NCBI GenBank assembly: GCA_963971535.1
Contig: OZ020585.1
Span: 24,016,736-24,080,735 of the forward strand
DNA: 64,000 nt
DNA from: Notolepis coatsorum
Taxonomy: Eukaryota > Chordata > Actinopteri > Aulopiformes > Paralepididae
Reading direction: 5' to 3'
Below are positions 2,582-46,063 of the stretch, piece by piece; positions within the stretch are counted from its first letter, which is position 1, and the number at the start of each line of letters is the position of its first letter. The notes beneath the pieces were generated by a model. The model saw nothing but the letters and a program-made list of their open reading frames with translations. It did not search any database and was not told the DNA's origin. The position numbers and the translations under genes are program-made.

Positions 2582-2955
2582 TAGGGGTGTAAAGGTACAC
2601 GTATCCGTACCGAACCGTTTCAGTGTGTACCATACCGTACCGAACGGCTGTGTAGTGTACCGAACGAATACAACGGTATGTTAACCACTAACGACCGCCC
2701 ACCGGGGGATGTTTTTTTCACAATCTAATATAATAATTATTATAAAAAAAATATTTACAAGTCGATTATTAATTTCAATATAGAATATTCGTTGACAGCC
2801 CTACAAGTACAATTAGTTACTGCACACTACATCACCCCTGAGTGGAACATGGAAAGCCAAACTTTCCCCCATTGTACCGAAAACCCGTACCGAACCTTGA
2901 CTTCAAAACCGAGGTACGTACCGTACCGTGGTTTTTGTGTACAGTTACACCCCTA
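2582..2955. mobile_element. Terminal-inverted-repeat MITE (TAGGGGTGTAA ends)
   Basis: The left end TAGGGGTGTAAAGGTACAC and the right end GTGTACAGTTACACCCCTA are imperfect inverted repeats of about 19 bp. Subterminal GTACCGAACC and its reverse complement recur inside both ends. The flanks share TGTAG (2577-2581 and 2956-2960), a possible 5-bp target duplication. It is 374 bp with no coding capacity, so it is a non-autonomous DNA transposon. Confidence 0.7.
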
Positions 2956-3550
2956 TGTAGGCAAGTGACTCAGATTGTAAAACCATGAACATCATTCAAA
3001 GACGTCATATCCGTTGGTGACTTCACATAACAATGATGTCGGACCAAACTATATTTAGCACTGCTACAGATTGCAAGAAGCCAGACTGTTAGACCCATTA
3101 ATCAGTAGTATTACTTGGGAACAGGAAAGAGAAACAGACCAGTGATGCATGTTGGCCTTTAGTGAGTCACTTCCCACTGACCTGCAACACTCTATTTGCA
3201 GACTTGGTGACACTCATTTCACCCTTGTCCACTCAGTCCTATGTTGAAATGCCTCTCCTGCGATATCTGAATTGGATTTTTGCAGGTGACGGACTGTGGA
3301 TAAGACTGCGGTATTAAACTTTTGTGGTCAGTGAGTGGAGTTTGGTCATCCCTGTCTGCCAGGGACCAGCAGTCGTAATGGTGCCTGTTGACCTGCAGGT
3401 AATATGTTCGAGCCCGGCTGTCCAGCTGGAGTCACTGTGTGTTGAGCTGTGAGTTTAGAAGGGCGTAATGAGGTTGAAGCGACATAGTAATAGCCCCTGA
3501 AATAACCCCCTCTTCGCTATCTGAATTGGATCATTTTCAGGTAGCGGACA
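2956..3550. other. Unassigned sequence with a repeated motif
   Basis: No gene is seen. GTGGATAAGACTGCGGTATT (about 3297) recurs with one change near 5962, beyond the minisatellite. ATCTGAATTGGAT occurs near 3268 and 3520. The interval is probably old repeat debris. Confidence 0.35.
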
Positions 3551-3721: not shown

Positions 3722-3996
3722 TGGTAATACTGTATATTTCAGTGCTACTTGGTACTACTGTATATTTCATTACTACTTGGTAATACTGTATATTTCAGTG
3801 ATACTTGGTAATACTGTATATTTCAGTACTACTTGGTAATACTGTATATTTCAGTGCTACTTGGTAATACTGTATTTCAGTGCTACTTGGTAATACTGTA
3901 TATTTCAGTGCTACTTGGTAATACTGTATATTTCAGTACTACTGTATTTCAGTGATACTTGGTAATACTGTATAATATTTCAGTGCTACTTGGTAA
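3722..3996 (+). repeat. 28-bp minisatellite, left part
   Basis: Tandem units close to GTGCTACTTGGTAATACTGT plus ATATTTCA, with shorter (GTATTTCA) and longer (GTATAATATTTCA) variants. The array is interrupted at 3997 by a LINE and resumes at 5161 with the same unit. Confidence 0.9.
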
Positions 3997-5160
3997 GATC
4001 TTGGCCTTGAGAAGAATCATCGAGGAGGTGAAGAAGAACAACCTGACAGCGGTACTGTGCTTTATCGACTTCAAAAAGGCTTTTGACTCGATACACAGAG
4101 CCGTGATGATGAGGATACTCAAGGCCTACGGAGTCCCTCCCAATCTACTCCGGGCCATAGGGACCATGCACACGGGTACAAGGGCCAAGGTGGTAACCCC
4201 AGATGGCAACAGTGAAGAATTTGACATCCTGGCTGGAGTGATGCAAGGGGACACCCTTGCCCCCTTCCTTTTCGTCATAGTCCTCGACTATGCGCTCAGG
4301 AAGGCCATCAATGGACGGGAGCAGGAACTTGGTCTCACAATAACCCCAAGGAGATCGAGACGACACCCCGCCATAGTCCTAACAGACCTTGACTACGCGG
4401 ACGACATCAGCCTGCTCTCTGACCACGTGGAGCAGGCACAGGAACTCCTGTGCAGAGTGGAGACGGAGTGCGCCAAGGTTGGCCTTAGGCTAAATGCCAA
4501 GAAAACCGAGGTCATAATGTATAACATCCTCCCGGATCATCCACCTCTAAGGACAACAGGAGGCTCTGCTCTAAAGGAAGTCGGTGATTTCAAATACCTG
4601 GGCTCGTGGGTCAACTCGTCCGAGCAAGACCTTAAAGTGAGGAAGGCGCTTGCGTGGAGGGCTCTGAACGGCATGACCAGTGTGTGGAAATCCAACCTCC
4701 CCCGTCAAATCAAGCTCAACTTCTTTCATGCAACAGTTGAGTCTGTCTTTTTGTATGGCAGTGAATGCTGGACCTTGAAGCCCACCCTGCAGAAGTCCTT
4801 GGATGGGTGCTACACCAGAATGATGCGTGTGGTGCTCAACATCAACAGGGATGAGCATGTCACTAATGCAAACTTGTATGGGGGGGTGCTAAGGGTGAGC
4901 GAGAAAGTGGCAGTCAGGAGAATGAGGCTGGCAGGTCACTGCCAGAGACATCATGAGATGCCAACCAGCAAACTTGTGCTGTGGGAACCAACACACAGGC
5001 ATCGATCACAAGGACGTCCCACATTAACCTACGTGGACGTACTCAGGAGAGATGCGGGAACAGAATGCACCGGCGAGCTAGCCAGATGCATGGAGGATCG
5101 GGATGACTGGAAGCACCGATGGAGGGCCCGTCCGAGGACGACCTAGATAGATAGATAGAT
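3997..5160 (+). mobile_element. 5'-truncated non-LTR retrotransposon inside the minisatellite
   Basis: The insert splits the 28-bp array. Array sequence ends GGTAA (3992-3996) and resumes with GGTAA (5161-5165), a plausible 5-bp target duplication. The right end is a short (TAGA)n tail, typical of some LINE 3' ends. Only the RT domain and C-terminal part remain. Clade is uncertain: RTE/CR1-like features are present, but I cannot place it without a tree. Confidence 0.85.
3998..5146 (+). pseudogene. LINE reverse transcriptase, N-terminally truncated
   Basis: This is an open frame of about 380 codons of LINE sequence. It shows the RT core in order: FIDFKKAFDS (near 4070), the motif GVMQGDTLAP (near 4230), the catalytic YADD (4394-4405), then NAKKTE and FKYLGSWV. 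The C-terminal part carries LYGSECWTL and GRPTLTYVDVLRRD. The endonuclease domain and the first RT motifs are missing because of 5' truncation. The apparent start methionine at 3959 is encoded by minisatellite sequence and is not the element's start. The frame ends with a stop just before the TAGA tail. It has no in-frame stops, so the copy is fairly young but cannot move on its own. Confidence 0.85.
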
Positions 5161-11442: not shown

Positions 11443-12701
11443 GGTACATATTTTACATTTACATTTAGTCATTTAGCTGATGCTTTTATCCAAAGCGACT
11501 TACAAGTCATCAGGTAGGGCACAACTCTATCAGCTGAGTAACAATGTTCATCAAAGTGTTGAGTGCTACAGTGTAGGTTAGTATATTAGGACAAGTGCAT
11601 GACAGTAAGGTTAGTTAGGGTTACATAATTTTTTTTTAGATAATGGTTGAAGAAGTGTGTCTTTAGTCGATGGCGAAAGATTGGACGGGTTTTGGCTGTC
11701 CTAACTGTGGTGGGCAGTTTGTTCCACCATTGTGGGGCATGGACTGAGAAAAGGTGGCTTCTCCTTGATGACCCTCCCGGAGCTTGGATAGGAGTGGGTC
11801 TGAGATGGCCAGAAGATGCAGAGCGTAGGGGTCTTGAGGGTGTGTAGTTAGAGACCATTGACCGGAGGTAGGCGGGAGCCGTTCCCTTTGGCGCACGGTA
11901 TGCCAGGTCGAGGGCCTTGAAGCGGATTCGTGCGGCAATGGGGAGCCTGTGCAGGTCCCTAAGAAGTGGGGTGACATGGGCTGACTTTGGTAGGTTTGAG
12001 ATCAGGCGGGCCGCTGCGTTCTGAATGAGTTGAATAGGCTTGGTGGCAGTGGTCGGAAGGCCAGCAAGCAGTGCGTTGCAGTAGTCGAGGCGGGAGATGA
12101 CTGTTGATTAGATGAGGAGTTGGGTGGCTTCTTTTGTCAGGAAGGGGCGGATCCTTCTGACGTTGTTCAGGAGGAATCTGCAGGTTCTGGTTGTCGCTGC
12201 GATGTGAGCGGAGAAGTTCAACCGGCTTGTCGAGGACAACACCAAGGTTCTTGGCGGTCGGGGACGTGGTCACAGCTGCATTCTCGACTGTGATGGAAAG
12301 GTTGGTCAGGGGAGAGGATTTGGCCCGCAGGTTGAGTAATTCTGTTTTGCCTAGGTTCGGTTTGAGGTGGTTGGTTGTCATCCAGGCGGAGATGTCAGAC
12401 AGACAGGCCGAGATCCACTCGGAGACGTGGATATCTGAGGGAGGGAAGGAGAGGAAGAGTTGAGTATCATCGGCATAGCAATGATAAGAGAAGGCATGAG
12501 AGGTGATAATGTTACCCAGAGATTTAGTGTAGAGGGAGAAGAGAAGGGGTCCTAAGACCGAGCCCTGGGGGACACCCGACCGCAGGCGGCGGGTGGCCGA
12601 CAGGGTCCCTCTCCATGACACTTGGTAGGCGCGGTCATTGAGGTATGATGTCAGCCATGTCAGTGCAGAGCCAGCCACTCCCATTCCTGCGAGGTACATA
12701 T
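11443..12701 (-). mobile_element. L2-type LINE, 5' truncated, with 9-bp TSD
   Basis: The body is 11452-12692. The 3' end on the minus strand matches the fish L2-like tail (on plus: TTAGTCATTTAGCTGATGC, ATCCAAAGCGACTTACAAG). The duplication GGTACATAT is at 11443-11451 and 12693-12701. The insert carries the C-terminal half of the polymerase ORF. Confidence 0.8.
11586..12692 (-). pseudogene. L2-type reverse transcriptase, C-terminal part, frameshifted
   Basis: Minus-strand translation shows an RT domain: SGVPQGSVLGPLLFSLY, the catalytic YADD (12466-12477) and NLGVVLD. The reading frame then breaks at least twice. Downstream fragments in other frames carry the family's C-terminal signatures near 11590-11860 (a HAPQWWNKLP block and RLKTHFFNHYLKK). 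The endonuclease and N-terminal RT motifs are absent because of 5' truncation at 12692. The first methionine near 12699 is accidental. This is a dead copy. Confidence 0.8.
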
Positions 12702-12880
12702 GAGTTCTCAGTGTGTTTGGTATATAGTAATAGTCACTGTGTATAGTATATAGTACTCAGAATATGTACATAGTAGTACTTGTACTTGTATAGTTGACAT
12801 GTTATATTATAGCTAGCTAACATTAGCTAGGTCAACAAAATAAAACTCAAAATAGAACAAAAAAATATTCTTGTGCTTTA

Positions 12881-15474: not shown

Positions 15475-16016
15475 GGGGCAGTGTGTGGGCCACTAATGTG
15501 GGCTGGTGTGTGGGCCACTAACGTGGGCCGGTGTGTGGGCCAGTGTGTGGGCCAGTGTGTGGGCCACTAATGTGGGCCAGTGTGTGGGCCGGTGTGTGAG
15601 TCGGTGTGTGGGCCACTAATGTGGGCCAGTGTGTGGGCCAGTGTGTGGGCCAGTGTGTGGGCCAGTATGTGGGCCGGTGTGTGGGCCGGTGTGTGGGCCA
15701 GTATGTGGGCCAGTGTGTGGGCCAGTGTGTGGGCCACTAATGTGGGCCAGTGTGTGGGCCGGTGTGTGAGTCGGTGTGTGGGCCACTAATGTGGGCCAGT
15801 GTGTGGGCCAGTGTGTGGGCCAGTGTGTGGGCCAGTATGTGGGCCGGTGTGTGGGCCGGTGTGTGGGCCAGTATGTGGGCCAGTGTGTGGGCCAGTGTGT
15901 GAGTCGGTGTGTGGGCCACTAATGTGGGCCAGTGTGTGGGCCGGTGTGTGGGCCAGTATGTGGGCCGGTGTGTGGGCCGGTGTGTGGGCCAGTATGTGGG
16001 CCATTGTGTGGGCCGG
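15475..16016 (+). repeat. 12-bp GTGTGGGCCRGT minisatellite with 170-bp higher order
   Basis: The basic unit is GTGTGGGCCAGT or GTGTGGGCCGGT, with GTGTGAGTCGGT and CACTAATGTGGGCC variants. The pattern containing GGGCCACTAATGTGGGCCAG recurs about 170 bp apart (15561 and 15731). Since 12 is a multiple of 3, both strands give long but meaningless open frames. The same motif is found near the hAT right end (19275-19335). Confidence 0.9.
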
Positions 16017-23912: not shown

Positions 23913-25530
23913 CTAGATCCTGACAGAGTATATACATATGATGGCGAGGGAACTGTACATTAGGAGGGGGTGGGTGGGTGGGAGAGAGATATACATACGG
24001 CGGGGAGGGAATATATACATGCGGTGGGGAGGAGACTGTCTATTAGGAGGTGGTGGGGGTTTTGGGCATTTACGGTGGCCAGTTTCGAATTGCAGCCTCC
24101 CGTAGGTGCTCTTTAAGAGCGGTTTTGAATGTGGGTAGGGATTCCATTCCTTTACAGCTTTGGGTAGGGCGTTCCACATTGATGTGGCATAATTGCGAAA
24201 CGTATTTAGTCCCTTGTTTGAGCCGAATCTGGGTTTAACATGATTTGTTGAGCTTCCTCTGGTGTTGTGGTTGTGGTATTCACTGACCTTTGGGAAGTAT
24301 TTTGACATGTACATGGGTACCTTAGTCGTATAGTGTATCTTGTAGACCAGGCCCATTGCAAGTTGCTGTACTCTGTCGTCTACTCTAAGCCATCCTAGGT
24401 TGTCAAAGTGGGCAGGGGTGAGGTGGGTTCTGGGGGTAAGGTCAAGTAGTAGTCTGACCAGTTTGTTTTGTGATGTTTGTAATTTTGTTTTAAGCGCCTT
24501 TGAGGTGCTTTGGTACCATGAGGTGCACACATAGTCGTAGTACCCTTGAATGAGTGCTCCTGCCAGAGTCTTCAGGGTATTCTTGTTTACCAGAGAGGAG
24601 ATCCGGTACAAGAATCTAGTTCGTTGGTTGACTTTTTTTATTACATTGGATGCCATTTTGTCACAGGAAAGATTTGCCTCTAGGATGGAACCCAGGTAGG
24701 TAATTTCGTCTTTCCTTGTGACAATATTGTCACCCACTGCAACTGAGAAGCCGTCGGTCTTGCTGAGTTTGTTATTTGAACCGAAGAGAATGGACTCTGT
24801 TTTGCCCATGTGTAATGATAGTTGTTATCAGCGAGCCATATGCAGATTTTGCCTAGTTCCGAGCTGAGGGTTTTTTCAACCTGCAACTTGTTCTTGTCAG
24901 AGACCAGCAGGGCTGAGTCGTCCGCAAACAGGAACAAGTTGCAGTCACAGGCTGACGACATGTCATTTGCATAAATTAGGACGAGTAGCGGTCCTAGTAT
25001 GCTTCCTTGTGGAACACCACAGCTCACTGTGAGGGGGGGGGGGGGTAGAGTACCGTTTACCTCTACCATCTGTTCTCTCCCCTCCAGGTAGGATTGCATC
25101 CAGCTCACTGATAAGCTATCAAAACCAATTGCTTTTAGCTTGTCAATCAGAATGGAGTGATTGACAGTGTCGAAGGCCTTTTGTAGGTCCAGCATGACCA
25201 TGCCGCAGTATTTGCCCGCGTCCACCTCTTGTTTGATGTGGTCGTTCAAATAGAGGAGGCATGTGTCAGTGGAGTGGGACGTTCTGAAGACAGATTGGAA
25301 TTCGTAGATTAGATTTTTTTCCGCCAGGTACTTTTCGACCTGTTCGAAGACTATTTTCTCCATGACTTTCGAGATGGAGGTAAGAATAGAAACAGGGCGG
25401 TAGTTGCCTGGGTCTAATTTGCTGCCCTTTTTGTGCAGAGGGGTCACTCTCGCAATTTTGAAGTCCTTGGGGACGTGTCCCTGTTTTATAGAGAGGTTTA
25501 TTATGTGAGTGATGACTGGGCGGATTTAAA
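23913..25530 (-). pseudogene. LINE reverse transcriptase (minus), one frameshift
   Basis: The upper part (about 24830-25530) reads with standard RT motifs: PLHKKGSKLDPGNYRPVS, MLDLQKAFDTVNH, SCGVPQGSILGPLL and the catalytic FADD (24917-24928). The lower part (23913-24835) continues in another frame with GKTESILFGSN, YLGSILEANLS and SMWNALPKAVKEW. The frame changes near 24825, where one base appears to be missing. The endonuclease domain is absent, so the copy is 5' truncated near 25530. Most of the RT and C-terminal region is otherwise open, suggesting moderate age. It belongs broadly to the Jockey/CR1-like non-LTR elements. The exact clade needs a tree. Confidence 0.8.
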
Positions 25531-33090: not shown

Positions 33091-33164
33091 TTACCTACCT
33101 CAATCTATAGTCTATCCATATAACACAGTATGATAGCAATGTACAATAACATTGTATATACATA
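33091..33164 (+). mobile_element. LINE 3'-UTR-like sequence, left of the LTR element
   Basis: It appears continuous with 39540-39785 once the LTR element and one CATA duplicate are removed. The right piece ends TGTGCTGTGCAATGACAATA, a LINE 3'-end motif. Confidence 0.4.
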
Positions 33165-34987
33165 TGTAGCAGTCTGGAAAATATGGTATATTATTCAGAA
33201 CTGCTGACTGTGTTTATATCCCTTTTTGTACACAAAGACATTCTAACTAGTGTCATTGATTCACACGAACAATGACACAAAACTCCCCGTCCAAAGAGCA
33301 TGTGAATACGGATCATAAATGACAGTATTGATTCATATTTTACAGTGCGTCTCCCCTTGTGACTGGCAGGCGGGACCAGCAGGGGGCAGTAGCAGGCAGA
33401 GAGTGGCGGAGAGAGCTGAGAGATGATAAAGGGAGGAGCCGAGCGGAAGTCGCTCTCTTCGGCAGTGAACTTGACAACGAGAAGTCACGTCTAACGGGGG
33501 GGCTCTGGATAGCCCCGTTGCTGACTTTATGCCGGAGTGCCCCGTGGAACAGTGACGGGTGATAGGAAGTACTGGCTAGTGGATACGATATCCTAGCAGT
33601 ACCAGTGTTATGATATTATGAACATTAAGTGCAGAGTCAGGCACTAAGAGTCGAGTTATACCTAGTTACAGTGAGCGGTATAGGTAGCGTGCGGCTAAGG
33701 ATCACAGTAGCATTGCTCGTGTTATACCTAGTTACAGTGACGGTATAGTCTGCGTGCCAGAGACGTACGGGACATCCAAGCAGTCTGCCCGGGCGTCAAC
33801 AGCTGTCTGCACCGGAGAGCAGCAGCACACCTGCTCCAGGCTGCCTGCAGGACACGGGGAGTTCTTTACCACCAGCAGAGTTCGCCCAGCACCAGCTCAG
33901 CCAGCACTGCCTCTCTGCTATAGCTCCGCCTGCTAGCACCTGCGGCGCGAGTGTTCGACGCCATCTTGCCACCAGGACGGTGGTGGAGCGGCGCAGCCGC
34001 CATTTTGGTAGAGTAAACATTAGGGCTTCGGCGCCCAGGATCTATTGCACCTTACACAGTGTGGAGCGGCCTGCGGGTGAAGTTAACATTGCTAACTGCA
34101 GACCCCAAACATTACATTACATGCCGGCATTAGCATAGGGCTTTTGTTTTGGTAATTGTGGGCCCACACTTTGGTTTTATTTCCTTTTCTTTGAGCGTGA
34201 TACAATGTGTGTGTATTAATATTTTCCCATTCAATTAACCCTTCCCTGGGGGGGGAAGTTACAGACCTGGTGCATTATAATTAAAGCCTTTTGAGGTATT
34301 ATTCTGGCCGTATAATTAAAGCCTGTTGAGGTATTATACAGGGTGAAGACCCAGACGTGGGTGATGAGTCAAACACAGTGAAGTATATTATCCCGGATAG
34401 TAACCCAGAGGTGGGTGCATAATATACGTGTTTATGAGGTATTGAGTTGAACAGCAGGGGCTATAGTAGGACTTCAGCCCAATTGGCCAGTAGTATTAAA
34501 TAATTGTAACTGAACAGTACAATTAACATAAAGACTTGAATGGGGTTCTGTGTGCGTGTCCATTCCTGTGCCCTGCATTAACTCTTTTGGTGTGGGTAAC
34601 GTATATATATGGTTAACCCCTTCCTACCCAACTCTCCCCTTTTCATTGTCAGGTTTCTAGGGTCATTGAGGGAGGGTACTGCTTGCGGGGGGAACTCAGA
34701 GTATTTGATTACAATTCAGTCACGAGGTGTGGGAGGGTCTAAGGAGCGACTGGGAGGAGTGGGAGCGTGTTGGGGAGTACTGCTGACCGCCCTGCGATAG
34801 GGAAGGAAGACCAGAGTACCAGACCAGGTTGGTAAATCCCGGGCCCCATCCACTCACACTACCAGCCTCCAGTCGACGCCCCAGGCCCAAAGACGAGGGT
34901 GCAGCCAGACAGAGTTCTGCTGTGTCCAGCTACCTCCTGACTGCCAGCAACCGTTCCCACGAAGCAGGGATAATCCACCCTGCTACA
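33165..34987 (+). repeat. 5' LTR, 1823 bp
   Basis: TG...CA ends with 7-bp inverted termini (TGTAGCA/TGCTACA). Relative to the 3' LTR I see C33718 versus T38265, A34088 versus G38635, and a G run of 8 versus 9. Small open frames inside are repeated in both LTRs and are not genes. A TATATATA box is at about 34599. Confidence 0.93.
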
Positions 34988-35055
34988 TTTGGCGTCACGA
35001 ACAGGATCAACATCCTAACTTACTCCCTTGACCGAGACCCGTAGAGAGACCCACG

Positions 35056-37449
35056 ATGTCAAAGAAGGAGACCGCCACCGCGCAAGAGATGGCGGCGAAG
35101 TTTGAGCAACTGCAGGAGCAGTGTCAGACTCAGGCGGCACTGCTAAAGCAGCAAGCCGCAGCGATGAAGGAGTTGACTGACCAGGCCCTCCACACTCAGG
35201 TGGCCCTACAGGAGCTACGAGAGGGCCAGGCCGCCGCCACCTTGATACAGAAAGGGGAGACCCACGTCGCGCAGGAGAGGGAGGCAGAGTTAGAGCAGCT
35301 GCAGGAGCAGTGTGAGACTCAGGCGACACTACTGACGCAGCAAGCCGAAGCGATCAAGGAGTTGATCAACAAGGCACTCCTAGAGAAGCGCTACACTGAG
35401 GCGGCCCTAAAGGTGCAACGAGACGGCGAGGACGCCGCCGCCGAGGTAAAGAAAGAGGAGGCCGAACGCATGGAGAGCCTGACCGCACAGGTGGAGCTGT
35501 TGGCGAACAGAACCCACACACACGCGGGCCTCCTGGACCGACAGGCGCTGGTGCTGGAACAGACCCAGCACGAACAGCGGGAGCAGGCCGGACGCCGAGC
35601 TCCGCTTGCCTTGGCACCGGCCGGGATCCAACAGCTCCCTCCAGCGCCCCTCCCGGTGGTGTACGTCCAACGAGAGCGGAAGTGCAGCGAATTTGGAGGT
35701 GAACAAGAGATGGGGGAACTGCCTGTGGAGGACTGGATCCAGGCGATGAGGACCCACCTCCGGGCCAGTCGAGTGCCCGCGGAGGAACAAGCGGAGGTCG
35801 TACAGCTACACCTCAAAGGCGAGGCGAAGCAGACGGTACGCTTCCTGACGGGGGAAACCGCCCCCGACACGGAAGCCTTGTTCAAGATACTCCAAGAAAC
35901 CTATGGGGACAAGGTCCTGGTCAGCATTCGGCTGGGGGAGTTCTTCGATCGAAGACAGGCCGCCAGCGAGACCACACGCCAGTTCGCCTATGACCTGCAG
36001 GAGAGGGTCCGTCGCCTACGACGTCGGGCGCCTACGCTGGTCGGCGATGCCACCGCCCTGCTGCAGGAGCGGTTTGTGGTGGGCCTCAGAGACGAGGCCC
36101 TGAGGAGAGAAATGCGGAAGTACATGAGGGAGGACGGTACACGGCCGTTTCCTCAGGTACTGCAGGCGGCGATAGACTGGTCCGAAGAGGAGATGGTCCT
36201 GCCCCCCACAAGGGGTGCCGACAGGGGCATGATACGCGGCGTCGTCGTGAAAAGACACGAGCCACCTCTGGACATAGCCGTGCTACAGGAGTCCATCCGA
36301 CAGCTCTTCGCCGGCCAAGAGCGGTTGGGCGCGCGCATGGAACAGCTCTTCCAGGCGTTTCAACAGGAGCGAGACACACCCCAGAGAGGCTTCGCCGGAA
36401 GCCGACGGAGGAGAGACATGCCCTCTACCCCGCGCAGACTACCCCGCCGGAGTGAGGATGGGAGACTGATCTGCTACAACTGTCAACAGCCCGGTCATAT
36501 CGGCCGCGAGTGCCCCCGCGCGATGGAAGAATCACGCCGGGCGGAAGTACCGGGCGGTGAGGTCCCTCTCCCACCAGTACAGGACGCCACCCACACAGCA
36601 GCAGGCGGGTCGCCCGACCGGGCGACCGCCAGACCATGGTCTGGAGGGGGAGGTGTGGGGGTGTGCCGTAGAATTCGATACCACTGCGGCCGGCCAGACG
36701 AAAGCGCTGGCGCCCGGCTGCGCATCCCGATGCGGTCAGAACCGGAGTCTGTACCCAAGAGACAGAACAGGTCAAAAGGAGGTCAAGGGGGCGAGGACGG
36801 CCCGGACCAGGGGCCTCGTCGGCGCCGCTACCGCCGCAACTTCAACTACCGCTGCAGACGCTCGCCGGCCGGCGACCAGCCGGGCCCCGAGAGCGGCGAT
36901 GGAAACGTCAAGAGGACGTCAGTGTTCACGGTTCGTCCCGAAAGAGGGGGCCCCGAAAGGACCGTGCAGAGAGATCGGAGCAAGATCTGCCCCTTCCCGG
37001 CCTCCGACCCGGAAGAGCGGACGAGAGCTTCCCGAAGGAGCCCGATGAGAGCGCAGAGCTCATCCGAAGCAGACGTGGGGGGTGCCTTCGTTTACCCTCG
37101 TGAACCGCACCCTAGGGCGTGTAGCAGCAGCGCCGCTACAACAGCAGCTGAAGCAGCGCCGAACGAGGGAGGAGAGGTAGAGTTGGTCCCCTCAGGCGAG
37201 GGCGGCGAAGACGACGGAGACGGGGGCGAGGAGGGCGCTGTGAGCGGCCCCTCAGAGGCCTCGGAGGCCGAAGCCGTGGCCGAGGACCCGCCAACAGAGA
37301 CGGAGGAATCTGACACGGAGTTAGACTGGTGGGGGGTTAAGCAAACCCGGGCCCAGCTGAATGACAGAGGTGAGCCACTCGCTCGGTGTTTCCAAGACCA
37401 TGTGCGAAGGTGTGTGGGAACGAGACGAGTGGTGCACCTGTATGTCTAA
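35056..37449 (+). CDS. Gag-like polyprotein of the LTR element, with fused residual tail
   Basis: This is a 797-codon open frame on the element's sense strand, starting 69 bp after the 5' LTR; this is the first ATG after the putative primer-binding site. The N-terminal 130 residues are Gln/Glu/Ala-rich coiled coil, with a duplicated block (EQLQEQC..TQA.L..QQA) at about residues 16 and 78. Residues 220-385 match the style of a Ty3-type Gag capsid (LPVEDWIQAMRTHL, DWSEEEM). A CCHC zinc knuckle (CYNCQQPGHIGREC) lies at residues 473-486. After it the sequence is Arg-rich and then acidic (residues about 710-757). The tail is probably residual pol or linker DNA read in the Gag frame. Gag would bind RNA and form particles. 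Movement would need pol supplied by a relative. The sequence is GC-rich against AT-rich flanks. Confidence 0.8.
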   Translation: MSKKETATAQEMAAKFEQLQEQCQTQAALLKQQAAAMKELTDQALHTQVALQELREGQAAATLIQKGETHVAQEREAELEQLQEQCETQATLLTQQAEAIKELINKALLEKRYTEAALKVQRDGEDAAAEVKKEEAERMESLTAQVELLANRTHTHAGLLDRQALVLEQTQHEQREQAGRRAPLALAPAGIQQLPPAPLPVVYVQRERKCSEFGGEQEMGELPVEDWIQAMRTHLRASRVPAEEQAEVVQLHLKGEAKQTVRFLTGETAPDTEALFKILQETYGDKVLVSIRLGEFFDRRQAASETTRQFAYDLQERVRRLRRRAPTLVGDATALLQERFVVGLRDEALRREMRKYMREDGTRPFPQVLQAAIDWSEEEMVLPPTRGADRGMIRGVVVKRHEPPLDIAVLQESIRQLFAGQERLGARMEQLFQAFQQERDTPQRGFAGSRRRRDMPSTPRRLPRRSEDGRLICYNCQQPGHIGRECPRAMEESRRAEVPGGEVPLPPVQDATHTAAGGSPDRATARPWSGGGGVGVCRRIRYHCGRPDESAGARLRIPMRSEPESVPKRQNRSKGGQGGEDGPDQGPRRRRYRRNFNYRCRRSPAGDQPGPESGDGNVKRTSVFTVRPERGGPERTVQRDRSKICPFPASDPEERTRASRRSPMRAQSSSEADVGGAFVYPREPHPRACSSSAATTAAEAAPNEGGEVELVPSGEGGEDDGDGGEEGAVSGPSEASEAEAVAEDPPTETEESDTELDWWGVKQTRAQLNDRGEPLARCFQDHVRRCVGTRRVVHLYV

Positions 37450-37711
37450 GGGAATATGGCACAGAATCAGACGCAGGGGGGGTTGAACGAACCCGGCCCC
37501 AGAGGAGCACCAGAGGTCGGCTACCCGCTCGGTATCGCCAGGACTACGTGCTCAGGAGTGTGTCCAACTCCGGAGGGAGTGTGTAAAACTGTTGGCATAA
37601 TGCGTAATTGTCAACCGATGTGTGAAACTGTTGGTCTCAGGACCGTTGTCATACATGTGTGGTTTTGTTGTTAACTTGCAGAGGACTTAGCAAGTTCAAA
37701 GTGGGGGGAAA

Positions 37712-39535
37712 TGTAGCAGTCTGGAAAATATGGTATATTATTCAGAACTGCTGACTGTGTTTATATCCCTTTTTGTACACAAAGACATTCTAACTAGTGT
37801 CATTGATTCACACGAACAATGACACAAAACTCCCCGTCCAAAGAGCATGTGAATACGGATCATAAATGACAGTATTGATTCATATTTTACAGTGCGTCTC
37901 CCCTTGTGACTGGCAGGCGGGACCAGCAGGGGGCAGTAGCAGGCAGAGAGTGGCGGAGAGAGCTGAGAGATGATAAAGGGAGGAGCCGAGCGGAAGTCGC
38001 TCTCTTCGGCAGTGAACTTGACAACGAGAAGTCACGTCTAACGGGGGGGCTCTGGATAGCCCCGTTGCTGACTTTATGCCGGAGTGCCCCGTGGAACAGT
38101 GACGGGTGATAGGAAGTACTGGCTAGTGGATACGATATCCTAGCAGTACCAGTGTTATGATATTATGAACATTAAGTGCAGAGTCAGGCACTAAGAGTCG
38201 AGTTATACCTAGTTACAGTGAGCGGTATAGGTAGCGTGCGGCTAAGGATCACAGTAGCATTGCTTGTGTTATACCTAGTTACAGTGACGGTATAGTCTGC
38301 GTGCCAGAGACGTACGGGACATCCAAGCAGTCTGCCCGGGCGTCAACAGCTGTCTGCACCGGAGAGCAGCAGCACACCTGCTCCAGGCTGCCTGCAGGAC
38401 ACGGGGAGTTCTTTACCACCAGCAGAGTTCGCCCAGCACCAGCTCAGCCAGCACTGCCTCTCTGCTATAGCTCCGCCTGCTAGCACCTGCGGCGCGAGTG
38501 TTCGACGCCATCTTGCCACCAGGACGGTGGTGGAGCGGCGCAGCCGCCATTTTGGTAGAGTAAACATTAGGGCTTCGGCGCCCAGGATCTATTGCACCTT
38601 ACACAGTGTGGAGCGGCCTGCGGGTGAAGTTAACGTTGCTAACTGCAGACCCCAAACATTACATTACATGCCGGCATTAGCATAGGGCTTTTGTTTTGGT
38701 AATTGTGGGCCCACACTTTGGTTTTATTTCCTTTTCTTTGAGCGTGATACAATGTGTGTGTATTAATATTTTCCCATTCAATTAACCCTTCCCTGGGGGG
38801 GGGAAGTTACAGACCTGGTGCATTATAATTAAAGCCTTTTGAGGTATTATTCTGGCCGTATAATTAAAGCCTGTTGAGGTATTATACAGGGTGAAGACCC
38901 AGACGTGGGTGATGAGTCAAACACAGTGAAGTATATTATCCCGGATAGTAACCCAGAGGTGGGTGCATAATATACGTGTTTATGAGGTATTGAGTTGAAC
39001 AGCAGGGGCTATAGTAGGACTTCAGCCCAATTGGCCAGTAGTATTAAATAATTGTAACTGAACAGTACAATTAACATAAAGACTTGAATGGGGTTCTGTG
39101 TGCGTGTCCATTCCTGTGCCCTGCATTAACTCTTTTGGTGTGGGTAACGTATATATATGGTTAACCCCTTCCTACCCAACTCTCCCCTTTTCATTGTCAG
39201 GTTTCTAGGGTCATTGAGGGAGGGTACTGCTTGCGGGGGGAACTCAGAGTATTTGATTACAATTCAGTCACGAGGTGTGGGAGGGTCTAAGGAGCGACTG
39301 GGAGGAGTGGGAGCGTGTTGGGGAGTACTGCTGACCGCCCTGCGATAGGGAAGGAAGACCAGAGTACCAGACCAGGTTGGTAAATCCCGGGCCCCATCCA
39401 CTCACACTACCAGCCTCCAGTCGACGCCCCAGGCCCAAAGACGAGGGTGCAGCCAGACAGAGTTCTGCTGTGTCCAGCTACCTCCTGACTGCCAGCAACC
39501 GTTCCCACGAAGCAGGGATAATCCACCCTGCTACA
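37712..39535 (+). repeat. 3' LTR, 1824 bp
   Basis: Nearly identical to the 5' LTR (three differences seen). It is preceded by the polypurine tract at 37701-37711. Confidence 0.93.
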
Positions 39536-39539
39536 CATA

Positions 39540-41825: not shown

Positions 41826-43050
41826 TGGTATGATGAATACTTCTAAAGGTTTAAATGTTATCCACCTGAATATAAGGAGTCTGTACCCCAAAATTGATCT
41901 ACTGAGAGCTTGGCTTGTCTACAATAATGACAGTGTAATTACTGTGTCTGAGACATGGTTGCATAGTGCAATCTCTGACAATGAGGTTGGACTTGACAAC
42001 TATGTTCTGTACAGACCTGATAGGGGTTCTAGAGGTGGAGGAGTGGCTACATGTGTCAAATCAAACCTGACATCTGAGCTCCTCAGGCCAAGGGTAAACC
42101 CTATACACTTTGAGTGTATTTTCATTAAAAAAAAATTTCATGAAAATAAACAGTTGACCATAGGAAATATTTATAGACCTCCTGATTCCCCCTCTGAATC
42201 TACAAATGATACTGTATATTATCCACCATTAACTCTTTAGATCGTCCAAATGAAATTATTATCTTGGGTGACTTTAACATCAACTGGTAGTGGCTAGATC
42301 GATCATCTAGTAATGTTTGAAACCTATTTGGCAGTATCAACTTAACTCAACTCATAAGTGAGCCTACTAGAGTTGATACTAGATCCAAGTCCCAGCTAGA
42401 TTGGATTCTCGTCTCACATACAGATATAATCTCAAACTCAAAATAGTTTCAGCGACCATTCTATCATCTTCTGCATTTGGAAGATAAAGCTACTGTACCA
42501 TATGTCTACCATCAAAATTGGTAGTGAACTTATAAATCTGTTTAAACAAAGAGATAAGGCTTGGGAAATGCATCGCCTGACAAAGGATTCTGCCGACTTC
42601 AATGCATATAAACAAATACGGAACTTATGTACAACTAAAACAAAAAATGCTAAATCCAACTATTTCAAAGATTGTTTAAGCAATGATTTTAGCAATCCAA
42701 AACAGTTTTGGAAGATAATCAACAGTAGAACTATAAGAAGTCATCTATAAGTCCCACTCATATTAGAATTAATAATGAAGTTGTCAATGATCTCTCATCA
42801 ATTGCACTTGCCTTTAATCAGCACTTTAATTCTGTTTGCAGACAAAAATTGAATGACTCCTCCTACTCTGATGTGCCTCTTAATAACACCAGATGCAACA
42901 GCTCTTTTTCCTTTAGAAGTATTCGTCCGCTTGATGTTCAGAAGGTCATTGATGAATTAAGATTGGGTACTAGCTGTGGTTCAGATGGTATGGAGATCAA
43001 GACTGTCGTATATTTATTTAACCCTTCCACCCCATTTGCAGCATATTATT
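41826..43050 (+). pseudogene. Degenerate LINE: endonuclease and linker
   Basis: The first frame (41830-42240) starts with an APE-type endonuclease: NVIHLNIRSLYPKIDLL, a SETWL motif, YVLYRPDRGSRGGGVA and IGNIYRPP. A second frame near 42260 gives ILGDFNINW, and near 42455 a SDHS-like block follows, as in endonuclease active sites. Linker fragments follow at 42502-42750 (FKDCLSNDFSNPKQFWK) and 42849-43000 (a SCGSDG block just before RT). Several stops and shifts break it. It ends where the next LINE starts, so its RT is lost or displaced. Confidence 0.75.
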
Positions 43051-45757
43051 AAGGGTCTCTACAGGTGGTCAAGGAAGGGTACTGCCATTTTGGTCTTGGG
43101 GGATTTCAACAGCGCGCGTCTTAAAAAGGTGCTGCCGAATTTCTATCAGCATGTGACCTGTCCCACCAGAGGCGAGAACATATTAGACCATGTATACTCG
43201 CAATTTAAGAATGGGTACAAGTCACAGGCTCTTAGTCCATTCGGTAAAAGCGATCACGCCGCCATTTTTCTTTTGCCTAAGTACAAACAGAGTCTCAAGC
43301 GAACGCCGGTGGTCTCGCGAGAGGTTAAGCGTTGGGCCGTGACGTCAGTGGAGTCACTCCAAGCAGTGCTGGGAAGCACAGAATGGAGTGTATTCCGTGA
43401 TAACACAGCCAATATTAACGAATACACCGAAACGGTGATTGACTATGTCTGTACTCAGGTAGAAGTAATAATCCCCACCACCAAAATTAATATCTACCCA
43501 AATCAAAAGCCCTGGGTAGACAAATCCGTCCGTGAGGCTCTGAAAGTGCGCACATCAGCATACAACACCGGGCTGGTGACAGGCAACATGGAAGAACACA
43601 AGATGGCAAGATACAACGTCAGGAGAGCAGTAATAGAGGCAAAACGGCGTTACAGGGATAAAGTTGAACTTCAGTTTGAACAGGCTGACTCTAGAGGCAT
43701 GTGGCAGGGCCTCAGAACAATGACAGACTACAAAGGAACCCCCCTCAAACTGAACAGTGACATCTCCTTAGCAAATGATCTCAACTCCTTCTATGCGAGG
43801 TTTGAGGCTGTGAATAACAACACCAGCCTACAAACCACGGCAATGGGGGGGGGGGGGTCTGCTGATGGAGACTCAGTGTTCAGGGTAACAGAGCATGAGG
43901 TGAGACGGATCTTTAAAAAAGTGGATATCAGGAAGGCAGCAGGACCGGACGGCATCCCCGGCCGCGTCCTAAAAGTCTGTGCCGACCAACTGGCCCCGGT
44001 ATTCACTGACATCTTCAACCTGTCCTTGGAACAGGCCGTCATCCCCACCTGTCTGAAGAAGTCCACCATCATCCCTGTACCCAAAAAATCTACGCCCGCT
44101 TGCCTCAACGACTACCGCCCTGTAGCCCTCACCTCCATAGCCATGAAGTGCTTTGAGAAGCTAGTGAAGGGCTACATCTGTTCCTCCCTCCCCATCAACC
44201 TGGACCCTCTGCAATTTGCATATCGCCCCAACAGGTCCACGGAGGACGCCATAGCCCATGTGCTGCACACAGCAGCATCACATCTGGACAAGAGGCAGGG
44301 GAACTATGTGAGAATGCTGTTCATCGACTACAGCTCAGCATTCAATACCATAGTCCCCTCCAAACTCATAGCCAAGCTCAGGGACCTGGGCTTGAACTAT
44401 GACCTGTGCCAGTGGGTCCTGGACTTCCTGACGGGCAGACCCCAGGTGGTAAGAGCCGGCAACTGCACCTCCTCATCCATCACGCTCAACATAGGGGCCC
44501 CCCAGGGCTGTGTTCTGAGCCCCCTCCTCTACTCCCTGTACACACATGACTGCGTAGCACAGCGGAACAACAACACCATCATCAAATTTGCTGATGACAC
44601 AGTAGTGGTGGGCCTGATCTCTGCCAACGACGAAAGGGCCTACCTGGAAGAGGTAGAGAACCTGTCACAGTGGTGTCAGGAGAACTGCCTCTCCCTGAAC
44701 GTCAGCAAAACAAAAGAGATGATTGTGGACTTCAGGAGGTCGGGGGTCAAGGACTACAGCCCCCTCAGCATCGACGGGGCACCAGTTGAGAGAGTGAACA
44801 GTTTCAAGTACCTCGGAGCCCACATATCCGAGGACTTGACATGGACCACACACATTGACAGTGTTGTGAAGAAGGCACGACAACGCCTCTACTTCCTCAG
44901 GCGCCTAAGGAAGTTCCAAGTCAGTCAGAAGATCCTTAGGAACTTCTACTCATGTACAATAGAGAGCATCCTGACCGGCAACATCACCTCCTGGTTTGGG
45001 AATAGCACTGCACAAGACCGTAGCAGACTACAAAGAGTGACACGTTCAGCCGAACGCACAATTAGAGGGGGGCTTCCCACCCTCCAGAACATTTACAACA
45101 AGCGGTGCAAGGGGAAGGCTAAGAGAATTATTAAGGACTCGAGCCACCCGAACAACTGCCTCTTTGAACTGCTGCCGTCAGGCAAGCGATACCGGAGTCT
45201 TATGGCGAGCACAGAAAGACTCAGAAGGAGCTTCTATCCCCAGGCCATCAGGCTGCTAAACGAACAATAATCGCTAAACGAACAATAATCACTATGCAAC
45301 AACCATCAAATGCACACAGCACACACACCCACACGCACACACTCACTCAAACAAACAACACACTGCAGCACCCACTCTCCACACTTTAGATCACACAAAC
45401 ACACTTACACTTTATATTTATTGATAAAGGATTTGCACTACAACTCGTACACCTACTGTGAATTGTACCTAAACTGCACCTCGTCCATTTATGCCTTGCA
45501 CTATATAGTATTGTATATTAGTACACTGCACAGTATTGTATATTGTATGGTAACTACGTCTACGAACATTGTACATATGTCTAAACTGAACACTGTGACC
45601 TCTTTTTACTTCTAATTTTTACTATGTTTTTATTTCATACTTATCTTGTCATGCACAGTCTCTGGAGCGCAACAGTAAGAAGCATTTTGTACAAAAGTAT
45701 TCTGTACTTCTGTATGACAACTATTAAAGAAACTTGAAACTTGAAACTTGAAACTTG
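43050..45757 (+). mobile_element. 5'-truncated LINE with open RT frame
   Basis: Sequence from about 43050 is a different and better preserved LINE than the one before it. Its 3' UTR is rich in CA and ends with ATTAAAGAAACTTG and a (GAAACTT)n tail at about 45730-45757. The target duplication was not resolved. Confidence 0.8.
43055..45270 (+). CDS. LINE endonuclease C-terminus and reverse transcriptase (L2/CR1-like group)
   Basis: About 738 codons are open in one frame. The first methionine upstream (42976) lies in the previous LINE, so the true start is lost by 5' truncation. Motifs in order: GDFNSARLKKVLP and SDHAAIFLLP (end of the endonuclease), a linker, KAAGPDGIPG (about 43938), IPVPKK and NDYRPVALTS, FIDYSSAFNTI, GAPQGCVLSPLLYSLY, the catalytic FADD (44587-44598), LNVSKTKEMIVDFRR and FKYLGAHISEDLTW. 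The C-terminus has the HPNNCLFELLPSGKRYRS block. The protein would copy LINE RNA at a nicked target. With only part of the endonuclease it is probably inactive alone, but it is among the youngest-looking LINE frames here. Confidence 0.85.
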
Positions 45758-45790: not shown

Positions 45791-46063
45791 ACAGTCACCG
45801 GGTGTGGGAGGGCTAACGGAGGTACTGGGGGAAGTGAGAGTGTGTGGGGAGCTACTGCTGACCGCCCTGGAAGGCGAGGAAGACCAGAGCACCACCCCCC
45901 AGGTTAGTAAATCCTGGGCCCCATCCGCTCCTGCTGCCCGCCCTCCAGAACGACGTTCCGGGCCCAAAGACGGGGGTTCAGATAGATTGAAATCTACTGT
46001 ATCCCGCTACCAGGTGGCTGTGTATAACTACTCCCATAAGCAGGGATAATCCACCCTTCTACA
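45791..46063 (+). repeat. Diverged LTR 3'-end fragment related to the 33-39 kb element
   Basis: It matches about 34713-34987 of the young LTR with many changes: GTGTGGGAGGG, CTACTGCTGACCGCCCTG, GGTTAGTAAATCCTGGGCCC, CAAAGACGGGGGT, GCAGGGATAATCCACCCTTC, TACA. It has lost its 5' part at the LINE junction. It ends with the LTR's own terminal TACA. Confidence 0.8.

Follow-up and report, generated by a model that had tools for sequence, protein, structure and literature searches.

The capture of cellular genes is known from long terminal repeat (LTR) retrotransposons in plants and from retroviruses in animals. In the acute transforming retroviruses, which depend on a helper, a host coding sequence takes the place of pol and is joined to Gag in frame. 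The maize element Bs1 is gag-like and has no pol, and plants also harbor the TR-GAG elements, which were reportedly described by Chaparro et al. in 2015. To our knowledge, a genomic LTR family with an apparently selected, in-frame host RNA-binding protein is unusual. A TR-GAG element is reported to have moved in Arabidopsis (PMC8704663), Bs1 and others transduce cell genes (PMC11963269), and an N-terminal RNA-binding domain has been described in PNMA (PMC3406341, PMC11011659). Here, we focus on a 64,000-nucleotide stretch of the genome of the fish Notolepis coatsorum (contig OZ020585.1, positions 24,016,736 to 24,080,735 of the forward strand), which we call the window, and on the LTR retrotransposon that occupies its positions 33161 to 39539.

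We consider it highly probable that this element, which is young and non-autonomous, belongs to a Ty3-type LTR retrotransposon lineage that at some time took up the mRNA of a host Y-box gene (YBX). A first-pass annotation had read it as an internal deletion derivative that kept gag, with a Gag-like open reading frame (ORF) of 797 codons. The loss of pol by internal deletion and a Gag with its zinc knuckle both stand, but the integrase core appears to have been replaced by the captured gene: window positions 36764-36912, inside the ORF, come from the Y-box gene and the sequence from 36914 on is the C-terminus of pol. A placement of the missing pol between about 37050 and 37490 is not supported, since the losses lie at 36523-36913.

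The Y-box segment and its joints

The motif RRYRRNFNYR is, we take it, that of the tail of human YBX1. Compared with a presumed human YBX1 cDNA sequence, the window DNA agrees at 34/39 positions, in frame, and none of 3000 shuffles of each of three kinds did as well; a plain protein score against YBX is weak alone (2 and 32 of 5000 shuffles as high). The 149 bp at 36764-36912 match a host Y-box exon at 126/149 positions, and they match three relatives of the element at 130/149 (L043), 137/148 (L045) and 135/149 (L047). Chance similarity to YBX was considered and is ruled out by the three kinds of shuffle and then by the host exon match.

These relatives carry nearly the whole of a Y-box protein in frame, with its cold-shock domain and its basic C-terminal domain. 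The genome (3.42 Gb, 4787 contigs) gave 89 matches to the cold-shock family PF00313, with 104/104 candidates scored. According to a hand count, 71 of these matches extend over 60 or more of the 66 positions without a stop, a number that includes the plain retrocopies L044 and L046 and a second element family treated below. In L043, L045, L047 and L059, the cold-shock domain lies where the integrase core would be. A query with the presumed human YBX1 tail (150/170 candidates scored) returned at least 113 matches with E no higher than 10. Of these, 35 have an E of 0.001 or lower, the best being 8.8e-15; 38 of the 113 fall in open frames of at least 700 amino acids (aa), with three in one frame and one with a stop (hand count).

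The borders of the Y-box segment can be read against L083, a pol-bearing relative. On the 5' side, the match to L083 ends at its position 2540 in L043, L047 and L059 and at 2539 in L045; the pol spacer behind RNase H, of which the window copy probably keeps a piece, starts near L083 2131 in L043 and L059 too. On the 3' side, the match resumes at 4312 in L043, L047 and L087, at 4313 in L086 and in the window copy (36914), and at 4344 in L045, while the L059 locus does not extend that far. The YBX frame of the elements stops short of the host's last ~25 codons and stop codon and enters pol in frame, so that long uninterrupted frames hold the knuckle, YBX and the pol C-terminus. A 33-mer across the YBX-to-pol joint is found, with up to 3 mismatches, at 162 places of the genome, and its reversed control at 0; the 100 listed places, which include the window copy, are all without mismatch. 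In a hand comparison, 16 of the 71 cold-shock matches have one of these 100 joints no more than 1.7 kb downstream.

The joints bear on an alternative in which the element is a plain internal-deletion derivative, an animal counterpart of plant TR-GAG that kept gag, lost pol and for the rest holds a chance open frame. The absence of a detectable pol core, the kept pol tail, the existence of pol-bearing relatives and the movement of a TR-GAG-type element reported in Arabidopsis (PMC8704663) all suit it, and the frame at 36541-37304, taken alone, is open in 15/5000 shuffles. The longer post-knuckle frame, 36541-37446, is however open in 0/5000 dinucleotide shuffles, and the 149-bp host exon match sits at a joint common to copies with a whole cold-shock domain. 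We regard this alternative as improbable; as a full account it is refuted by the YBX joints, and it stands for the last step only. The window subfamily would derive from a YBX-bearing copy through a second deletion.

Several copies have further structure around the captured domain. In L086 (4947-5268, reverse-complement coordinates) and L087, an RE/RD/RR-rich repeat array, RREPDRREPDRRGPEKRE.., lies between the cold-shock and C-terminal domains; the L043 frame is without it. Positions 1-1968 and 6921-8869 of L086 (same coordinates) form a 97.7% identical direct repeat, with an LTR end and gag start twice, which suggests a tandem or recombinant element array. A 1487-codon open frame at C9:193032-196493 holds several matches to the cold-shock domain and the Y-box tail one after another and is apparently a tandem of the captured domain. 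The partial cold-shock matches L084 and L085 gave no match to the collected Y-box sequences. No viral contig was found with the capsid protein, the primer binding site (PBS) or the YBX motif, and the two matches of the YBX motif in 257 Gb of prokaryote contigs both lie in stop-filled frames.

The host gene, selection and a second element family

The locus L042 is part of the host Y-box gene, whose cold-shock exons lie outside it. The gene's resemblance to human YBX1 would suggest a vertebrate host. It has four blocks that match the processed copies (226-531, 990-1094, 1504-1822 and 2897-3245) with other sequence between them, and GGTGAGTT directly follows the third block. The element copies L043 and L062 cross the block borders without introns, as a transduced gene does. 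Since the host gene has introns and the copies in the elements have none, the YBX sequence in the elements came from spliced RNA. A 351-b query made of an exon and the following intron has its full match only at C44; it also gives seven places with the exon part only (six of ~116-123 b, one of 58 b) and eight weak matches of 50-116 b in the intron part. The six exon-only loci (C43:82091096, C6:121124487, C8:2015067, C8:1994873, C46:10635578 and C6:83067698) match the Y-box gene at 94-99% and are likely processed retrocopies. Two of these loci, L044 and L046, are processed copies in which both AATAAA and an A-rich tail are present; L046 (C8:2.015 Mb) has two cold-shock domains.

The ratio of nonsynonymous to synonymous changes (pN/pS) suggests that the captured cold-shock domain was under selection while inside the element. 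Its value is 0.206 among four older copies (L045, L047, L086 and L087; six pairs). With two pairs taken as independent, 15/22 changes are synonymous where neutrality predicts 23-35%, depending on the model (P 9e-6 to 1.4e-3), in a test that uses few, partly non-independent changes and would lose strength were the two pairs to have a branch in common. An earlier set (L043, L045, L047, L048 and L059) gave 0.234 over 10 pairs, L047 and L048 being the same in the cold-shock domain, and the value between groups is 0.287.

A second, distinct and apparently unrelated element family carries the Y-box gene as well. Thirty cold-shock loci were fetched (L049-L078); L058 and L059 belong to the first family, and the other 28 were compared for the second. 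The part of L062 that lies before YBX is matched by BLAST in 26 of these 28, L062 included, and in 24 over at least 657 b; L056 and L070 match it over 37 and 149 b only, and L049 and L078 do not match. Neither the LTR nor the interior of the window element has a BLAST match in the 28 loci at E 1e-5 on either strand. In this family (e.g., L051, L062 and L077), the Y-box coding region follows the family's own N-terminal frame, and in L051 an integrase-type SH3 domain follows YBX.

The presence of the gene in two families could reflect two independent captures of YBX mRNA, perhaps through Y-box messenger ribonucleoproteins (mRNPs) packaged with Gag, rather than one capture that was then transferred. 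YBX ends at L043 1738 in family 1 and at L043 1462-1551 in the family-2 loci compared, L051 then entering its SH3 tail, and YB-1 is reported to co-localise with mouse mammary tumor virus (MMTV) Gag and RNA (PMC4486188). An alignment shows, on the other hand, that the 5' stretch ahead of the YBX start is common to L062 and family 1, and the 87-97% identity of family-2 loci to L043 in YBX also fits a transfer between families. We would put two captures at slightly under an even chance. The uptake of one host gene by a second, unrelated family might mean that Y-box mRNPs are captured with unusual ease or are of unusual use to parasites of this kind.

All of this has to be weighed against the idea that YBX is passive cargo, a processed retrocopy that landed once in the element and has been carried without function, eroding as in the window copy. 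In favor of it, the genome has six exon-only matches of 116-123 b besides the gene and the poly(A) signals and tails of L044 and L046; the window subfamily spread without the cold-shock domain, and the pN/pS of family 2 is 1.11 (26 copies, 325 pairs). Against it stand the in-frame fusion to pol at the 3' joint with the YBX stop missing, the long uninterrupted frames that take in knuckle, YBX and pol C-terminus, the low ratio in the older copies and the presence of YBX in two different element families. We find passive cargo unlikely.

Anatomy, copies and relatives of the element

The features of the window copy are given in Table 1. Its interior between the LTRs spans 2724 b (34988-37711) and, with TG..CA LTR ends, a PBS and a polypurine tract, it has the make-up of an LTR retrotransposon. 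The alignment confirms that the 1.82-kb LTRs are near-identical, with exactly three differences, as many as had been counted by eye: C at 33718 for T at 38265, A at 34088 for G at 38635, and an extra G at 38795. Both substitutions read as CpG-to-TpG/CpA changes; the extra G falls within a G-run and may be an error of the assembly. This near-identity supports the recent insertion proposed by the first-pass annotation, whose polypurine tract (ending at 37711) and 4-bp target-site duplication, CATA, are also borne out. So is its PBS candidate: its 18 nt are complementary to the 3' end, counting CCA, of tRNA-Ser(CGA), for which ARAGORN finds a gene in the genome (L080). A search of the genome with the tRNA end led to three places, namely this gene and two at which ARAGORN found no tRNA gene. 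At L079 and L081, tRNA-Ser 3' parts that end in a genomic CCA are followed by a common sequence, CCAATTGT, and have the look of a tRNA-derived repeat. The PBS 21-mer TTTGGCGTCACGAACAGGATC has 746 genome copies (370 + 376) and its reversed control 0.

Table 1. Features of the element, in window coordinates
Feature	Position	Strand	Basis
Left target-site duplication, CATA	33161..33164	.	flanks of LTR alignment
5' LTR, TG..CA, 1823 b	33165..34987	+	LTR alignment
Primer binding site, 18 nt complementary to tRNA-Ser(CGA) 3' end	34990..35007	+	tRNA gene at L080
797-aa ORF: Gag, linker, Y-box remnant and pol C-terminus	35056..37449	+	ORF translation
Two in-frame copies of a Gag N-terminus stretch (35067-35191 and 35256-35380), 82%	35067..35380	+	self-comparison
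Capsid region, top Pfam match PNMA, below cut-off	35650..36270	+	profile search
CCHC zinc knuckle, residues 473-487	36472..36516	+	zf-CCHC
Linker, common to L015, L019, L024, L029 and L038	36523..36672	+	sequence comparison
Probable piece of the pol spacer after RNase H	36673..36747	+	25 residues, 52% to L083 2136-2210, E 0.003
Y-box gene remnant, very probably captured; last basic island RRRRYRRNFNYRCRR, in frame	36764..36912	+	match to host exon L042; joint 36895-36927 without mismatch
Pol C-terminal region behind integrase core, from the joint common to YBX-bearing copies	36914..37319	+	74% to L083 4313-4721
Pol tail copy 1, in frame, ORF end	37305..37416	+	self-comparison
Pol tail copy 2 (..RTRPQRSTRGRLPARYRQDYVL..), outside ORF	37451..37562	+	self-comparison
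Polypurine tract	37698..37711	+	read from sequence
3' LTR, 1824 b	37712..39535	+	LTR alignment
Right target-site duplication, CATA	39536..39539	.	flanks of LTR alignment

Between its LTRs, the element has a single Gag-bearing ORF without pol domains, as TR-GAG elements do, but this ORF is not Gag-only since it contains the Y-box remnant and the pol C-terminus. The knuckle announced by the first-pass annotation is well supported (zf-CCHC, E 6.6e-7), and the capsid region matches PNMA of Pfam at E 0.012-0.015, with 15 bits for a cut-off of 25. The coiled coil that had been proposed is dropped: the N-terminus is long and almost proline-free, and its heptad signal is not above composition, 85/300 shuffles scoring as high. 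No reverse transcriptase (RT), RNase H or integrase had been seen, and Pfam scans agree, with no pol domain in the 797-aa ORF and, for 10 additional interior ORFs, no match with an E of 1 or lower, which also rules out a pol in unrecognised form in the interior. Pfam scans of the ORF found no cold-shock domain either. Searches of PDB sequences with the ORF, its capsid part and its C-terminal part gave no convincing match, an NCBIfam scan gave one sub-threshold match only, and an Rfam scan of the window at the gathering threshold gave none. The pol-tail block noticed at 37490-37560 is real, but it belongs to the second of two copies that are 71% alike, the first of which lies in frame at the end of the ORF; positions 37494-37711 are 87% alike to L083 4765-5008.

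The long Gag ORF and the weak PNMA match would also suit a domesticated, PNMA- or Arc-like host gene. We give this next to no credence, and it is refuted for this locus by the intact and near-identical LTRs, the PBS, the target-site duplication and the many near-identical copies.

A genome search with the post-knuckle region 36541-37304, which spans the deletion, listed 42 matches, of which 40 are full length at 97-100%, the window copy included, and two are 60-b pieces. As 40 of the 1095 first-look candidates were scored, there are at least 40 full-length copies of this structure, and the deletion is therefore neither private to the window copy nor an assembly gap; the sequence also contains no N. 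The shared deletion that the first-pass annotation had proposed to look for in other Gag-only copies is thus present. An ORF of 797-800 aa is found in 6 of the 8 loci fetched (window copy included), with a frame broken behind the knuckle in L006 and a start not found in L008.

Full-length, pol-bearing relatives had been expected in the genome, and they exist. Among 30 of the 746 PBS places that were fetched, all match the window interior somewhere, and 28 match the capsid-to-knuckle stretch at least partly (68-94%); L014 and L036 match only near the start. By eye, 17 of the 30 go on to a protease motif (DTGA or DTGS), and L011 is one of them. Downstream of L011, L083 has RT, RNase H and integrase domains in that order (Pfam), a pol tail that reads RPQRSTRGRLPARYRQDYVLKSV, and an LTR that is 90% alike across LTR positions 1-1038; the end of the L083 integrase is read in a frame of its own, apart from the 1077-codon frame. 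L082 has RT and RNase H domains. L011/L083 and L012/L082 thus have the PBS of the window element together with a related LTR and Gag, as the TR-GAG model asks of a pol-bearing relative. By its Pfam domains and their order, the pol-bearing relative would be of Ty3 type; the window copy itself does not have the Ty3-type order of protease, RT, RNase H and integrase.

Elsewhere in the window, the 3' end of a related LTR (78%) lies at 45792-46063 with no PBS behind it. An ORF that resembles those of long interspersed nuclear elements is found at 42961-45267, with RVT_1 and ALKBH8_N matches, and further RVT_1 ORFs are at 3956-5143, 11962-12756 and 24683-25525. A 12-bp minisatellite of ~44 copies covers 15475-16014.

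Proposed history and comparison with known systems

The history that we propose would start with an ancestor in which spliced YBX, lacking its stop codon and its last 25 or so codons, took the place, in frame, of the part of pol that lies between the RNase H-integrase spacer and the C-terminal part of integrase; RT and RNase H are missing from these copies too. The window subfamily is without the cold-shock domain and most of YBX; 49 codons of the basic tail remain between the knuckle and the pol C-terminus, and the subfamily has spread to at least 40 nearly identical copies. This order of losses is the one that we infer. The RNA of the element would encode its own Gag-YBX-tail protein, with Gag provided in cis, and would be primed by tRNA-Ser, while reverse transcription and integration would be carried out by the proteins of L011/L083-type relatives, whose PBS is identical and whose LTRs and Gag are related. 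In the fuller copies, YBX may bind RNA and protect or package it through its cold-shock and basic domains; the basic island of the window copy may extend the nucleocapsid. Trans-mobilisation, RNA binding by the captured domains and a benefit to the element are all things that we infer from the sequences. We are more tentative, and somewhat less than evenly balanced, about the broader proposal that the lineage swapped its integrase core for a Y-box protein and spread as a Gag-YBX particle parasite, which would use the captured cold-shock protein to gather or protect RNA and would borrow RT and integrase from relatives, with the same host gene appearing in a second family.

A number of observations weigh against this history, apart from the chance openness of the shorter post-knuckle frame and the family-2 ratio. 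None of the 40 near-identical copies, the window copy included, is among the 113 matches listed for the presumed human YBX1 tail; that query picks other copies that keep more of YBX, and the link of the window subfamily to YBX rests on the DNA match and the shared joint. On the 5' side, the L083 match ends at 2516 in L086 and at 2530 in L087, not at 2540, and the 990-codon frame of L086 does not start in the capsid frame. The Gag of the window subfamily has a pN/pS of 0.83 (6 young copies), a weak constraint, and its broken frame makes L006 a further point on this side. The descent is drawn from end states, that is, from the fuller copies and the window subfamily. In their YBX part, L043 and L059 resemble family 2 and the retrocopy L046 more closely than they do L045/L047, which may reflect a second capture or an exchange of sequence. 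If so, the ratio of 0.287 between groups could owe something to the host gene, a question that does not touch the 0.206 obtained among the older copies. Finally, the case is drawn from genome sequence, in which open frames and pN/pS are what would point to translation of the captured part.

The part that a Y-box protein could play finds an echo in virology. Knockdown of YB-1 is reported to lower MMTV particle production (PMC4486188), and YB-1 is reported to support HIV replication (PMC6040738). These reports make it no more than plausible that a captured Y-box protein would aid a Gag particle. Among the matches listed in a search of the open-access literature, there is no report of a Y-box gene in an LTR element, and a search for the YBX peptide and the PBS letters gave no match. 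The elements could provide a natural test of the role of the Y-box protein in the Gag particle and of the competition of non-autonomous elements for helper proteins. They would also illustrate one way in which a full element can turn into a Gag-only one, the other states being preserved alongside.

Among known systems, the TR-GAG elements of plants are alike in their two LTRs, their single Gag-bearing ORF, their lack of pol and the presumed trans help from a complete relative; here, however, the element is animal, the ORF contains a host-gene remnant and the pol C-terminus, and relatives with the whole cold-shock domain exist. Maize Bs1 is likewise an LTR retrotransposon that took a cell-gene sequence into itself, but in another kingdom and with other genes, whereas in the present case the captured gene is that of an RNA-binding protein, the joint recurs at 162 places and the captured domain shows a sign of selection. 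With the Gypsy12_DR and PNMA-type Gag elements (PMC3406341, PMC11011659), the window element shares a Ty3-type Gag whose top Pfam match, below threshold, is PNMA, but it has no convincing match to a solved structure. The acute transforming retroviruses offer a parallel in their in-frame Gag-host fusion in place of pol and in their dependence on a helper; what we describe differs from them in being genomic elements with 162 joints and a Y-box RNA-binding gene, known from sequence and with no envelope or infection shown.

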